From a virus, in the IMG/VR virus record IMGVR_UViG_3300037264_005455, positions 1 to 23,172 of that record: a stretch of 23,172 nt of DNA; one strand, 5' to 3'. Below the pieces are notes generated by a model that worked only from the letters and a program-made list of their open reading frames with translations, did no database searches and was not told the origin of the DNA. The position numbers and the translations under genes were made by a program. Below are positions 17,276-22,980 of the stretch, one piece after another (position 1 is the stretch's first letter; each line of letters begins with the position of its first letter).

Positions 17276-18349
17276 TCAACGGACCGTAGCGCCGAGGCGA
17301 CGACGAAACATCGCGCCGTTCAGCGGAAGCTGCTGCCTGAACGAGTGCCCATTGGGGCACCGGAACGAAGGCGAAAGCTCGTAGCCGAACGACCTCCTCT
17401 CCGCTGCGCGTCGCAGTTCCGAGAGCAGCGGTAGCGGCGCCTGCTTGACCCACCGCATCGCGTCCAACACGCCGACGCGCTTGCCGTCGAGCGTGGCGAT
17501 GGTGCGCGCGTGGATGAAGCTGTGCAGCTTGGCGCCGGGCGTCGTGGCTTGCGTGTTCTGGGCACGCTCCGCGAAGTCCTCGGCCTGGATCAAGTCCTCC
17601 AGGCGAAGGTAGCGAAGGCCCACGGTCTGCCCATTCGCGAGCGTCACGTCGATGGGCTCCGCGAGCGGCCCCGACACGTAGACCTGCTGCGCCTCGATGG
17701 CCTCCACACCGTCGATGCCCATCTCACGTAGGACGCGAAGATCCTCGTCCTCGTCCTGCGCCGTGTCGGGCGGCCACGTCGTCGGCTCGCCCAGCGCCGC
17801 TCGACGCAGCACGCGGCACGGCACCTGCGACAGCGGGCGCGAGCCGTCGAACTGCGTGTTGCACGATGGGCACACCGGGTAGAGCGGGATGTTGTCCTCG
17901 CCAAGCGAGAGCGCGAGGACGTGCAGGAGGACGGCGCTCCAGTCCGACAGTTCCAGCTTCTCGTACGGGATGCCGGCGCAGTCCACGCACTGGCTCACGA
18001 CGTGGCGGAGCACCGGCGTAGCGGACAGGCCGTCACCCGCGCCGGCCAGGATCTCCTCCTGCTCTCCACGCATTGGAGAGATGACCACTACCCCCGGGTG
18101 GTCACCGTAGAGGAGCCCACCCGACGGGAGGCTGTACGGGCGCCCCAACGGGTCGGGCGCCCGAGGCGAGATGAGCTTGGGCGACGGGAGGCGGCGCCCA
18201 GGTACCTGTGCGCCCGGTAGCGCTGGGGGCGCAGCCTGCGCCACGGGAGGCCCCTCAGGACCGACGGGGCTGGCCACGCCCAGGTTCGTGGCGAGCTTGC
18301 GCAGCGGGTGTTGCGAAGGGAGTTGGCTCGGGTCCATGTTGGGGTTCAC
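17276..18349 (-). CDS. T4 gp26-like baseplate protein with zinc-ribbon cysteines
   Basis: The 357-residue product looks like the T4 gp26-type baseplate family often found just upstream of the tape measure gene. Residues 25-66 are proline-rich. The core begins at YSLPSGGLLYGDHPGVVVISPM (72-93) and continues with a helical LELSDWSAVLLHVLALSLGEDN region. Cysteine pairs follow: CVDC at 121-124, CPSC at 160-163 and RCPNGHSF at 330-337, suggesting a zinc-binding ribbon. The GTG start is chosen because GGGGAGG lies five bases upstream and it overlaps the preceding stop as GTGA; the frame is open further upstream without a comparable site. An ATG four codons in is the alternative start. It is probably a hub or assembly protein of the baseplate. 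Its length exceeds T4 gp26, mainly through the N-terminal extension and an acidic central insert. Confidence 0.7.
   Translation of the reverse strand: MNPNMDPSQLPSQHPLRKLATNLGVASPVGPEGPPVAQAAPPALPGAQVPGRRLPSPKLISPRAPDPLGRPYSLPSGGLLYGDHPGVVVISPMRGEQEEILAGAGDGLSATPVLRHVVSQCVDCAGIPYEKLELSDWSAVLLHVLALSLGEDNIPLYPVCPSCNTQFDGSRPLSQVPCRVLRRAALGEPTTWPPDTAQDEDEDLRVLREMGIDGVEAIEAQQVYVSGPLAEPIDVTLANGQTVGLRYLRLEDLIQAEDFAERAQNTQATTPGAKLHSFIHARTIATLDGKRVGVLDAMRWVKQAPLPLLSELRRAAERRSFGYELSPSFRCPNGHSFRQQLPLNGAMFRRRLGATVR
18199..18208. repeat. Palindrome CAGGTACCTG, copy 3
   Basis: Inside the gp26-like gene. Here the same bases are read in another frame (Gln-Val-Pro), so the shared sequence cannot be explained by one conserved peptide. 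Confidence 0.6.
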
Positions 18350-18672
18350 GCGATCCTCCCCGCCGCACGCTCCACAGCCTGTTCGCGAGTGTGCTCCTCC
18401 TCCAGCCTCTTGCGCTCCCACAGGAGCGCTTCGTCCAACTTCGTGATGACGCACGCACGATCGCGCGACGGCTCCGCCCGTTGGAGCGCGCGTGCGTAGT
18501 CCACGCACACCTTCAACACTTCGATGAGTTCGACGCCGTTGGTGCCGCGCGTCTGGGCAGGCCCGTTCTGGAACTGAATCATGAGGGCGCTACCACCCTC
18601 AATGAGCGCACGATCCCAACAGCCGTGGTCCTGTCCCCAGCCGCCGGGCGTCGTGACGTAAGTCGCTGGCAT
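18346..18672 (-). CDS. Acb2/Tad1-like small protein (possible anti-CBASS/anti-Thoeris sponge)
   Basis: The 108-residue product resembles the Acb2/Tad1 hairpin family of small phage proteins. Family members form oligomers that sequester cyclic nucleotide or gcADPR signals and so block CBASS or Thoeris immunity. Seen here: IQFQNGP at 32-38, a TNGVELIEVLKV helix at 44-55, R-x-C at 72-74, and TKLDEALLWERKRLEEE at 77-93. This matches, from memory of the family, an FQ-x-GP / NGV..E.LL / C / KLEEAL-W pattern. The usual C-terminal R-GVEGT motif is not clear; the tail reads TREQAVERAAGRIA. AGGAG sits seven bases before the ATG, and the stop overlaps the next GTG by four bases. Such a gene among tail genes looks like an inserted accessory gene. 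Family membership is fairly likely; ligand and function are inference. Confidence 0.6.
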   Translation of the reverse strand: MPATYVTTPGGWGQDHGCWDRALIEGGSALMIQFQNGPAQTRGTNGVELIEVLKVCVDYARALQRAEPSRDRACVITKLDEALLWERKRLEEEHTREQAVERAAGRIA

Positions 18673-18684
18673 GTTGCCGCTCCT

Positions 18685-18699
18685 GGCCCATGTTGGGCC
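18685..18699 (-). promoter_or_regulatory. Short inverted repeat beside the ribosome binding site of the Acb2-like gene
   Basis: GGCCCA-ACA-TGGGCC forms a perfect six-base-pair stem with a three-base loop in the tube/Acb2-like gap. It ends two bases before the AGGAG that serves the Acb2-like ATG. No T-run follows, so it is not an intrinsic terminator. It could modulate access to that ribosome binding site or mark the edge of an inserted gene. Confidence 0.4.
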
Positions 18700-18729
18700 G
18701 TCACATCAAGTTGTAGAAACTGCTACCTC

Positions 18730-19359: not shown

Positions 19360-22300
19360 TTACGCGGCTGCCACGTCCGCAAACGATGCGCCCGAGGGGG
19401 TGAGAATAACATCGAAGTCGAGGTACTCGGTCGCGCGCGCAGGCTTGATGAACACCTTGGCGTTCACGCGCAGGTTGTCGATGTCCTCCGCCGTCGTGGT
19501 GGTCTGGTCCACGATCACGAAGTAGTCCTGGAGCCCGCGGCGCTCCTTGATGGGCGCCAGCACCGACTCGATGAACGCCTTGATCGACCGCCACAGGATC
19601 GTGTCGTTCAACTCGAACTGGAACTCCTTGGCCCCAGCGTCGAGCTTGTTCGCGATCACGTTGACGGTCCACGACACGTTGATGCGGTCGAGGCTCGTCG
19701 CCGCGCGTTGCGCCGTGCGCTGCCCGTTCAACTGGAGCCCACGGCCCGAGTAGGCCGCGATCACGTTAACGATCTCCGTGCGCTGACCGACCAGCCCGTA
19801 GACGAGGTTCTGGTCGTCCAACTCGACCGAGTACTTGACAGCGTCCGCCAGCACGCGCCCGCGACGCCCACCAGCGATGGGGAACCACGGCGCCGCCACC
19901 GAGTCCGTGTTGGCCACGAGCGCGGCCACGTCACCGTCCGGCGGTTCGATGACCTGCTGGTTCACGTACTGGTCGAGGTAGCTGAGCCACGGGGCGAACA
20001 CGGCCATGAGCCGCGAGTCGATCGCCACCGACGGCGGGAAGGGCACGCGAGCCGTGGCGACGGGCGGTAGCGACGGGCCCGAGTTCCACTCGCCGTTCAC
20101 GAAGTCGCGCACCTGGAACACGTCGTCAGTATCCGGGGTGGGAACGATGCCGATGCACCGCCGGCCCTTGCGCTCACAGAGCGTCTGAAGCGCGGTGATG
20201 ACGGGCGCGTGCCACTGGCCCGGCACCATGATCCAGTCGAGAGGAACGATGTCCGCGTTGCGGAACATCTGGAGCCCGGTCGTGACGGAGCCCACCTTGG
20301 TACCGACCACGTCCGCGTTGGTGAAGGCGCCGCTCATGCCCGCCGACTGCGCTGCGGTGAGGTCCACGTCGAGGATCCCGCCGTCGTCGGTGACGGTGGC
20401 GCGGATGAAGTCCGAACCGTTGAGCGGATCGTTGATGGCGTTCGCGAGATCGTTGAGCGTGGGGGCCTGGCCGAACGACTCGATGATGTTGAGCGCGCCG
20501 AAGTAGACGCGCGCGAGCAGCGTCCCCGCCAGCGACGGGTCGGCCAGCACCTCCAGCCACAGACCGTCGGTCAGGATCGGGCGGTGGTTGCCGATGTCGC
20601 CCGGGTAGCGACTCGTGAAGTGGAGAACCACCTCGTCAGCGGCCACGAAGACAGCCTCGTCGAGCAGGGGCGCGCTCGTCCACTGGATGGACGTGCTGCC
20701 GTCGCGCAGGTCGAGGAAGTTGTCGGGGTCGCTGGGCGCGGCGACGTTCTGGCTCCAGTAGTCGGCGTCCTGCGATGCACCGAGCGTGGCGAACGACACC
20801 TGCGGATCGCCAGCGCCGAACGCGCTCGCCTGCGCGCCCTGGAACGCTACGAGGCGGTTCGCCTGGCGCCGGAACGGGGCAGGCGACAGCGAACCCACGA
20901 ACACGGTGTTGGTCCCGTCTCCGAAGCCGAGGATCTCGGCCACCGGCATGTACACCGCCGTCATCGTGCCGTTGTCCAGCACGTCGAACGTGTTGGGGCC
21001 GGTTGTGATGAGGTCCAGCGCGAGCGCGAACGCGCCCGTGGTGTGGTCGAGGTAGTTCGTCCCGTTGTAGTTGTTCGCCGCCGCGGGGTTGGTCAGGTCC
21101 ATGCCCGCGACGTTGGCCGTGGTGTCCGCGACGAACTGCGGGCCCGTGCCGCGCAGGTTGCGGCGCGCCTGGTCGAACGGACCGGACGTGTACACCACGC
21201 TGATCTGCGCAGCAGCCGTGATGGCCGCCGAGTAGGTGACCGTCCACGCCCCCGTAGCGTAGTCGATGGTTCCCGTGACGGCGACGGCGCGCGGGTCGCC
21301 GCGCGGGCGCGTGAGCCACCCGCCCACGCCGTTGTCGTAGACCGTCACCGGCGAGCCGGCCACGTCGCTCGTGGTGAGCACCACGCTACCAGGGGAGATG
21401 GGCGTCACGAGACGTGAAGCGCCCGGATCGGTGTCGGCCGCCGTCGCGTCACCGCCCGCGTCGCTGGGCTGGAGCACCTGCTGCTTGGCCGCGTCCACCT
21501 CACCAGGGACGGCGCCGCCGCCCATGTCGAGGAGTTGGATGTCGTAGCGCGCCTGGATGGTGGCCGCCGTCACGGCCGGGAACAGCACGCCGCCGATGGG
21601 ATCCCAGGTCGTGACCGTCCACGCACCCGTGCGGTAGTTGATGGTCCCCACGACGACCACGCTCGGCTGTCCGATGGGGGCGGTGCGCCAGCCGCCGAGG
21701 CCGTCGTCGTAGATCGCGGGCGGCACCGGGTCGGTCGGGTGCTCCGGCGTGAGCACGACGGAGCCGGGGATGAGCCACCCCGCCAGCGTCTTCAGCGTGG
21801 CGACCGACGACGCGGCCCCAGCCGCCGCAAGGGCCGCGGTCCCCACCTGCTCCTCGATCGGGACCGTGATGACGACCTTGTTGGCGTTGAAGAACCCGAC
21901 CCCGAGCTTGGGACGGGACAGGTTCCCAGCGTACGAGCCGAGCCCCGCCGCGGTCGCGCCCACGGACTCGGACACGGCCTTCACGAAGATGGCGCCGAAG
22001 GTGCCGCCAGCGAAGAAGGTGGAGCCAGACGCGAAGATGTTGATGCCGTAGGCCCCCGTGCGGTAGTCCACGTAGCCGACCACGCTCGCGGCGCCAGTCA
22101 GGATGCCGAGCCCAGCACCACCCGGCGTGTAGGCCAGGTTCCCGTTGTCCGTGAGTTCCACGAACGCCGAGGCGCCCGTCTGCGCGCGGATGGTGAAGGT
22201 GCCGGGGACGATCGGCTGGCCGATGCTGCCGTAAGCGACGGTCTGGCCAGCGAGCGGAGCGTCGATGGTGCGGATGGTGGTGAACACCCGCGAGCCCGCC

Positions 22301-22980
22301 ACCGAGTCCATCTTGCCGAAGAAGCGCCGGCCCGCGATCCCTGACGTGGCCGACGCCACGCTCGCCGTCTTCGCAAAGGCGCCGTCGTCGCCACCAGAGA
22401 ACGGGCGGGGCTGGAGCGCCCCCGTGACCGGATTGAGCGTGGGCGCCGGGAACGTGTTGCCGGCGCCAGGCGCAAGCTGGATGCGGATGTTCCGCGACGC
22501 GTTGTTGACGCGCGTCTCCACCACGCCGTTGTTGAGACCGATGTAGATGTCGGCACCGATGGGCGCGCCGTCAGCGAACACCTGGAGGTTGTAGGTCTGC
22601 GTGCCGTTGTGCGTGACGGACACGGACAGGCCGCCGTCGTTCGCCCACGAGCCGGGGCTGGCCGCCGAGACGAGGAGGATGGGGGTGATGCCGTCGGCCG
22701 CGAACAGCGTGAGCGTGGCCGTCGCGAGGTTGGGGCCAGCGACGCGCACGAACTTGCCCTGATCGCCGCGCGACAGGTACCTGTTGAACCCGCGCTGCGC
22801 GTACATCCGATCGACCGGCTTGCCGTGCGTGCCGGCGAAGTTGCCCTCGTCCGTGAAGTCGGTCAGGCGGTTGATCGGGCCCTTCGTCGCCGGGCCCACG
22901 CACCCCATCACGGCGTTGGTGGTCCGCGGCGCGTAGAGGGTGAGGTCCGTGATCCGAATGGTGATCTGTGGGGCGACCAT
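19360..22980 (-). CDS. Contractile tail sheath protein, unusually large
   Basis: The 1206-residue product is a myovirus tail sheath subunit, which polymerises around the tail tube and contracts to drive the tube into the host. The N-terminus has the typical sheath opening: GPATKGPINRLTDF at residues 29-42, followed by a segment ending in KFVRVAG at 76-82. The C-terminal 200 residues carry the conserved sheath handshake region: RINVSWTVNVIANKLDA near 1099-1115, FIESVLAPIKERRGLQDYFV near 1136-1155 and NAKVFIKPARATEYLDFDV near 1173-1191. Sheaths are usually about 400-700 residues. The excess lies in the middle and includes at least three copies of a beta-rich module (258-316, 404-481, 529-600). 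The ATG has a GGAGG eight bases upstream. The tail tube gene follows. Confidence 0.93.
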   Translation of the reverse strand: MVAPQITIRITDLTLYAPRTTNAVMGCVGPATKGPINRLTDFTDEGNFAGTHGKPVDRMYAQRGFNRYLSRGDQGKFVRVAGPNLATATLTLFAADGITPILLVSAASPGSWANDGGLSVSVTHNGTQTYNLQVFADGAPIGADIYIGLNNGVVETRVNNASRNIRIQLAPGAGNTFPAPTLNPVTGALQPRPFSGGDDGAFAKTASVASATSGIAGRRFFGKMDSVAGSRVFTTIRTIDAPLAGQTVAYGSIGQPIVPGTFTIRAQTGASAFVELTDNGNLAYTPGGAGLGILTGAASVVGYVDYRTGAYGINIFASGSTFFAGGTFGAIFVKAVSESVGATAAGLGSYAGNLSRPKLGVGFFNANKVVITVPIEEQVGTAALAAAGAASSVATLKTLAGWLIPGSVVLTPEHPTDPVPPAIYDDGLGGWRTAPIGQPSVVVVGTINYRTGAWTVTTWDPIGGVLFPAVTAATIQARYDIQLLDMGGGAVPGEVDAAKQQVLQPSDAGGDATAADTDPGASRLVTPISPGSVVLTTSDVAGSPVTVYDNGVGGWLTRPRGDPRAVAVTGTIDYATGAWTVTYSAAITAAAQISVVYTSGPFDQARRNLRGTGPQFVADTTANVAGMDLTNPAAANNYNGTNYLDHTTGAFALALDLITTGPNTFDVLDNGTMTAVYMPVAEILGFGDGTNTVFVGSLSPAPFRRQANRLVAFQGAQASAFGAGDPQVSFATLGASQDADYWSQNVAAPSDPDNFLDLRDGSTSIQWTSAPLLDEAVFVAADEVVLHFTSRYPGDIGNHRPILTDGLWLEVLADPSLAGTLLARVYFGALNIIESFGQAPTLNDLANAINDPLNGSDFIRATVTDDGGILDVDLTAAQSAGMSGAFTNADVVGTKVGSVTTGLQMFRNADIVPLDWIMVPGQWHAPVITALQTLCERKGRRCIGIVPTPDTDDVFQVRDFVNGEWNSGPSLPPVATARVPFPPSVAIDSRLMAVFAPWLSYLDQYVNQQVIEPPDGDVAALVANTDSVAAPWFPIAGGRRGRVLADAVKYSVELDDQNLVYGLVGQRTEIVNVIAAYSGRGLQLNGQRTAQRAATSLDRINVSWTVNVIANKLDAGAKEFQFELNDTILWRSIKAFIESVLAPIKERRGLQDYFVIVDQTTTTAEDIDNLRVNAKVFIKPARATEYLDFDVILTPSGASFADVAAA
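21181..21396 (-). repeat. Beta-rich module, sheath copy 3
   Basis: Residues 529-600 of the sheath protein: SPGSVVLTTSD, then VYDNGVGGWLTRP, then GTIDYATGAWTVTYS, ending in ISVVYTSG. It aligns almost position by position with copy 2. A weaker trace (NYLDHTTGAFALAL, near residues 642-655) follows and may be a degenerate fourth copy. Confidence 0.75.
21538..21771 (-). repeat. Beta-rich module, sheath copy 2
   Basis: Residues 404-481 of the sheath protein: IPGSVVLTPE, then IYDDGLGGWRTAP, then GTINYRTGAWTVTTW, ending in IQARYDI. This copy and copy 3 are the most alike, and similarity is also visible at the DNA level around the Y-x-TGAWTV segment, which points to internal duplication. Confidence 0.75.
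22033..22209 (-). repeat. Beta-rich module, sheath copy 1
   Basis: Residues 258-316 of the sheath protein match a pattern that recurs twice more in the same protein: V-P-G-T-F-T-I, then a DNG-x-L turn, then GYVDYRTGAYGINIF. The consensus I read is P-G-S/T, alternating hydrophobics, D-N-G-x-G, and G-x-I/V-D/N-Y-x-T-G-A-aromatic. The alternation of hydrophobic and polar residues suggests beta strands. Confidence 0.6.
22773..22784. repeat. Palindrome CAGGTACCTG, copy 4, extended to 12 bases
   Basis: ACAGGTACCTGT inside the 5' part of the sheath gene, encoding Arg-Tyr-Leu-Ser on the minus strand. Confidence 0.6.

Follow-up and report, generated by a model that had tools for sequence, protein, structure and literature searches.

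Tad1 (Thoeris anti-defense 1) and Acb2 (anti-CBASS 2) are sponges that bind gcADPR or cyclic di- or trinucleotides and counteract Thoeris and CBASS. Sponges of the Tad1 type define the bacterial alarm signals that a phage has to neutralise. The closest described systems to the one reported here are the Tad1 proteins of solved structure, CbTad1 (PDB 7uav and 8smd) and CmTad1 (8kbb), and gp184 of phage phiKZ (PHIKZ184, a chain in 8y6v). The phiKZ protein carries a Tad1 domain, is annotated as a structural protein and is encoded near late structural genes, with a tail-associated endolysin upstream. It is a validated injected protein (PMC10449902) and is published as virion-borne; once injected, the Tad1 of phiKZ reportedly blocks CBASS/Thoeris (PMC13282480, a 2026 review; PMC12043709).

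The window, meaning the whole 23,172-nt stretch of DNA from an uncultured bacterial virus that was analysed (IMG/VR record IMGVR_UViG_3300037264_005455, positions 1 to 23,172), encodes a Tad1-like protein. Like gp184, this protein has a Tad1 domain and a gene placed among late structural genes. Unlike the genes of the solved Tad1 proteins, its gene belongs to a tail operon and is preceded by a conserved RNA hairpin. The reading that we tentatively favour is that of a late-made, possibly packaged sponge with an altered ligand.

Organization of the tail operon

The tail genes of the window lie on one shared strand. The 108-residue ORF that the first-pass annotation had singled out as an immune sponge candidate is present on the minus strand, and its proposed position between the tail tube and gp26-like genes is right. 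The features of this region are as follows:

18346..18672, minus strand: gene encoding the Tad1-like hairpin protein, 108 aa
17276..18349, minus strand: T4_baseplate/gp26-like gene (PF12322), 357 aa, downstream of the Tad1-like gene
18346..18349, minus strand: GTGA overlap of 4 nt between the Tad1-like stop codon and the gp26-like GTG start codon
18730..19290, minus strand: tail tube gene (PHROG 45), 186 aa, upstream of the Tad1-like gene
18673..18729, minus strand: intergenic gap of 57 nt from the tube gene to the Tad1-like gene
18685..18699, minus strand: covarying RNA hairpin GGCCC-AACAT-GGGCC, just upstream of the ribosome-binding site
18680..18684, minus strand: Shine-Dalgarno sequence AGGAG, directly after the hairpin and 7 nt before the ATG

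The tail tube protein matches PHROG 45 with an E-value of 2e-7, its Pfam gp19 score being under the cut-off, and the gp26-like protein scores 26.3 bits against PF12322 (Pfam cut-off 24.5). The 57-base gap had been given exactly, and together with the Tad1-like gene it marks an accessory slot. The 4-nt stop/start overlap with the gp26-like gene is found in eight of the ten distinct tail-clade sequences and likely couples the translation of the two genes. No PADLOC or NCBIfam match and no tRNAs were found.

Two further minus-strand genes of the window may be recorded here. A uracil-DNA glycosylase superfamily gene (611-1516; PF03167, E 4e-16) borders the tail/baseplate cluster, and the tail sheath gene (19360-22980) encodes an unusually long product of 1206 aa in which the recognised domain is the C-terminal sheath only.

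Homology to Tad1 and predicted structure

Sequence comparison leaves the Tad1-like protein almost certainly related to Tad1, as had been proposed. It matches the solved Tad1 chains of the PDB by phmmer (E 2.7e-5) and PHROG 2428 (E 2.4e-9), and a profile built from three tail-clade proteins matches the solved chains with an E-value of 2e-7. Alignment of the tail-clade profile with Tad1 homologues by hhalign, using a partner set of eight more distant homologues (seven canonical proteins and that of contig L013, described below), gave a probability of 99% and a P-value of 6.8e-18. The Pfam hairpin model PF24729 scores 18.6 bits, short of its gathering cut-off of 27, and the proteins of contigs L002, L003 and L030 reach 18.1, 21.2 and 18.4 bits respectively.

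The initial assignment had named Acb2 and Tad1 together. Acb2 has the PF24729 model in common with the tail protein, though the latter scores below the cut-off. The N-terminal strand region of the tail protein aligns with Tad1, and the sequence matches in the PDB include no Acb2 chain at E <= 1; the tail protein and Acb2 may still be distantly related.

The tail protein is homologous to CbTad1 and CmTad1 across the hairpin domain and retains FQNGP, GxNGV and R89. The motifs FQNGP (residues 34-38), TNGVELIEVLKV (44-55), R-A-C (72-74) and TKLDEALLWERKRLEEE (77-93) occur in the order first described. It differs from Tad1 in an N-terminus shorter by approximately 10-20 residues and in the replacement of several canonical pocket and C-terminal positions. 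Since defining features of Tad1 that were tested are absent, functional membership in Tad1 is not claimed.

The AlphaFold model features two long antiparallel helices (residues 49-66 and 70-107) after an N-terminal strand region, which agrees with the two-helix hairpin anticipated in the first pass and shared with Tad1. Mean pLDDT is at least 90 over residues 51-90, and the N-terminal half is poorly defined with low pLDDT; a deeper alignment provided no gain (pLDDT 66 vs 69). Tad1 entries are the best three Foldseek matches for the first model (E about 7e-3, probability 1.00) and the best six for a second, separate model. The remaining matches are generic helices and the E-values are modest, so the fold backs the sequence result and does not stand alone. 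VIA-align returned many unrelated helical bundles with Z-scores of 7-8 and therefore adds nothing beyond Foldseek.

Distribution and evolution of the tail-operon gene

The Tad1-like gene is found between the tube and gp26-like genes in 13 other contigs; these include near-identical copies, and the distinct sequences, counting the window, number ten. The relatives with the gene in the same slot are viral contigs L004-L012 and L030/L031, plus contig L025, assigned by binning to a Candidatus Eisenbacteria MAG. Wherever a close relative shows the slot, the gene occupies it (L005 begins too late for its tube to show). Ten distinct distant tail clusters carry the gp26-like gene 10-74 nt after the tube gene with no gene between. 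These Tad1-less tails have tube identities of 36-63%, and two large Tad1-less contigs (116-118 kb) contain no Tad1-like copy anywhere in them. Because the slot is empty in these distant relatives, the Tad1-like gene is an inserted accessory gene, as the first-pass annotation had supposed, and it is now fixed in one lineage.

The tail-clade proteins form a single clade in the protein tree (support 100/99) on a long stem of 1.36 changes per column. A single origin is clear on this tree. The short tube tree, where only 57% of bootstraps recover it, clusters presence and absence but by itself does not prove one gain. The Tad1-like gene is under purifying selection, with a dN/dS of 0.29 next to 0.32 for the gp26-like gene and 0.21 for the tube gene. 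The sister of the tail clade (support 99/97) is encoded on a 120-kb viral contig in which no related tube was found:

L013 5989-6327: Tad1 relative, 112 aa, outside a tail operon

The L013 protein has the short N-terminus of the tail clade, the INGVQL...VLRIC sequence and a Leu where the canonical Phe stands. It differs from the clade in keeping REN, the second Arg and GVEG, and its gene is flanked by dUTPase-like and Nudix-like ORFs (read from sequence) in place of tail genes. As a sister that keeps most canonical positions, it is a useful comparison for the tail clade.

These data bear on the main rival to a sponge, in which the Tad1 fold would have been exapted to form part of the tail or to help assemble it, for example at the tube, hub or chaperone step, with its immune role gone. 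The position between the tube and gp26-like genes is fixed in all close relatives, the stop codon overlaps the next tail gene, selection resembles that on the tail neighbours, and the canonical pocket was lost on the long stem while new residues became fixed, such as R72 in 10/10 sequences. However, related tails with 36-63% tube identity manage without the gene, which argues that its product is not a core tail part, and the sister protein of L013 keeps most canonical positions outside a tail operon. On balance, exaptation appears unlikely, and a sponge with an altered ligand is preferred.

The slot also holds further small variable genes in L008/L028 and in L030/L031, a pattern typical of a site for accessory genes. 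A 90-aa ORF of unassigned family (L028 3558-3830) lies between the tube and Tad1-like genes, and the same slot of L030 (3561-4480; also in L031) contains three small ORFs, starting MRTFNQYLSES, MRTFNQYLAET and MKTFEQHYLAEA, which have no Pfam or PHROG match. We take these starts to resemble the capsid-targeting start of the internal proteins of T4, a set of packaged proteins that the phage injects. The Tad1-like protein itself shows no capsid-targeting start of the T4 type.

Pocket residues and ligand

Conservation was compared between the ten distinct tail-clade sequences and 15 other family members (14 canonical proteins and L013). FQNGP, GxNGV, A82, W85 and the invariant R89 are common to both groups. 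Other positions are replaced throughout the tail clade. The Asn of the REN motif, found in 14/15 other members, is Arg in 10/10 tail-clade proteins (R72). The Arg two turns past the helix-2 Trp (15/15) has become Asp, Glu, Ala or Thr; the C-terminal Gly (14/15) has become Ala, Val or Thr; and the helix-1 Arg (14/15) has become Tyr, Phe, Gln or His, with the canonical residue in 0/10 tail-clade proteins at each of the three. A canonical Phe, present in 11/15 other members, is Leu or Met in the clade. The C-terminal R-GVEGT motif, first described as unclear, is in fact absent, and the protein has no tail of the RGVEGT type.

In CbTad1, residues F82, N92, R109 and R113 reportedly contact gcADPR. 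We take these to correspond to L63, R72, R89 and E93 here; the numbering serves as a lead, and the residue types agree with the aligned CbTad1 chain. By these positions, one of the four residues of the canonical gcADPR pocket (R89) is kept and three are replaced.

An ordinary Tad1/Acb2 sponge, expressed late and using the known pockets for gcADPR, cyclic dinucleotides or cA3, would account for the Tad1 homology and fold and for the retention of FQNGP, GxNGV and R89, the equivalent of R109, and a separate cyclic-trinucleotide site may survive. It fits poorly with the single contact residue kept out of the four of CbTad1, the missing C-terminal GVEGT, and the Asn and R113-type positions, which are held by 14/15 and 15/15 members elsewhere and by 0/10 in the tail clade. 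A conventional Tad1 with known ligands thus seems improbable, more so than exaptation. The originally suggested binding of cGAMP, cA3 or gcADPR is weakened, since PF24729 scores below its cut-off (18.6 bits) and no or almost no tail-clade member keeps the residues found at near-invariant canonical positions. Alignment of the pocket residues leaves relatedness to Tad1 standing, but the canonical-ligand claim largely fails. The protein is probably a re-tuned Tad1 rather than an ordinary one, judging from its residues, although loss of the canonical positions could equally mean that nucleotide binding has been lost.

RNA hairpin and control of expression

The small hairpin noted beside the gene exists, and its arms covary among relatives. 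It precedes the gene in every distinct tail copy: a first arm, GG(C/T)(C/T)C or a variant of it, is followed by an A-rich loop of five bases and the matching arm, and the end of the hairpin abuts the Shine-Dalgarno sequence 10-12 nt ahead of the ATG. All 50 of 50 cells pair, three of the five pairs show changes on both sides, and no shuffle out of 500 scored as high for covariation; when the partner is shifted by one column, pairing falls to 60% or less. These statistics rest on ten related sequences and the counts are small, but the hairpin is strikingly specific in its site and in the gene that it precedes. In the contigs searched, a covariance model of the hairpin gave strong matches (E 1e-9 or better) before the Tad1-like gene only, the next best match having an E-value of about 0.05 in a single-genome search. 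The hairpin lacks a U tract, and Rfam holds no match for it. Its derivation from the ancestral operon was considered and rejected, as Tad1-less slots do not have it and the contigs searched hold no other strong match.

No promoter or terminator was found on the coding strand between 18200 and 19500. The gene had been suggested to have its own promoter; this is unlikely because the coding strand has no promoter-like site and the gene overlaps the gp26-like gene by 4 nt in 8/10 sequences.

That the protein binds the hairpin and mainly controls translation of its own or the gp26-like gene, as RNA-phage coat protein does on its operator, would suit a gene-specific element that abuts the Shine-Dalgarno sequence, covaries in 3/5 pairs and is missing wherever the gene is missing, as well as the overlap with the gp26-like gene, but a processing, stabilising or host-factor role accounts for the hairpin equally, we know of no RNA-binding activity in the Tad1 family, and this explanation is very improbable.

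Proposed role of the Tad1-like protein

The lost ligand-holding residues together with a conserved RNA hairpin of its own suggest that the protein is probably a late-made, re-tuned Tad1. In the favoured reading of a sponge with an altered ligand, a Tad1-family gene would have been captured between the tube and gp26-like genes in one lineage of contractile-tailed phages, and the 5' hairpin would have come along with it or been gained soon after. The gene would now be co-transcribed with the late tail genes, and its output may be set by the hairpin and ribosome-binding site. Tad1 itself forms a hexamer of three dimers, and oligomerisation through the helical hairpin is probably kept. The product is probably still a sponge, a protein sequestering a nucleotide-type immune signal, but one whose pocket differs and whose ligand probably differs as well. 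Its action may come late in infection, once structural proteins have set off a defence, or in the next infected cell after delivery with the virion, in the manner of phiKZ gp184.

The first-pass annotation considered late expression unusual for an anti-defence protein. This overlooks the virion-borne, injected phiKZ Tad1 gp184 (PMC10449902, PMC13282480), given which delivery late or by the virion is nothing exceptional in the Tad1 family. Late expression would likewise suit defences that respond to structural proteins; ThsB1, for instance, senses a major head protein (PMC12043709). The phiKZ protein differs from the tail protein in its 230-aa length with a long N-terminal extension and in belonging to a different phage family; it groups with canonical Tad1 in the tree and keeps the canonical Asn, Arg and EGT. 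Another Tad1 homologue annotated as structural, orf71 of Lactococcus phage 1706 (L050 4872-5225), is a possible second virion-borne Tad1.

A lineage of phages may have made a Tad1 sponge a permanent member of its tail operon, with a novel pocket and a covarying hairpin of its own at the ribosome-binding site, serving either as a virion-borne sponge for an uncharacterised nucleotide signal or as a tail-assembly exaptation. A conserved, tail-linked branch with a rebuilt pocket would point to an uncharacterised ligand or to an anti-defence fold reused in virion building, and the gene-specific hairpin offers a handle on the dosing of late-made sponges.

Candidate frameshift in the gp26-like gene

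The end of the gp26-like gene (window 17308-17077, minus strand) contains an in-frame TTT CGT, and the +1 frame is open for approximately 76 further codons (FVVASALRSVEQ...), as far as the tape measure gene. This site resembles those at which tail assembly chaperone pairs undergo programmed +1 frameshifting. A search of the +1 frameshift literature found no direct precedent for the gp26-like site. All 10 other loci checked conserve TTT CGN as well as the +1 extension, whether or not they carry the Tad1-like gene.
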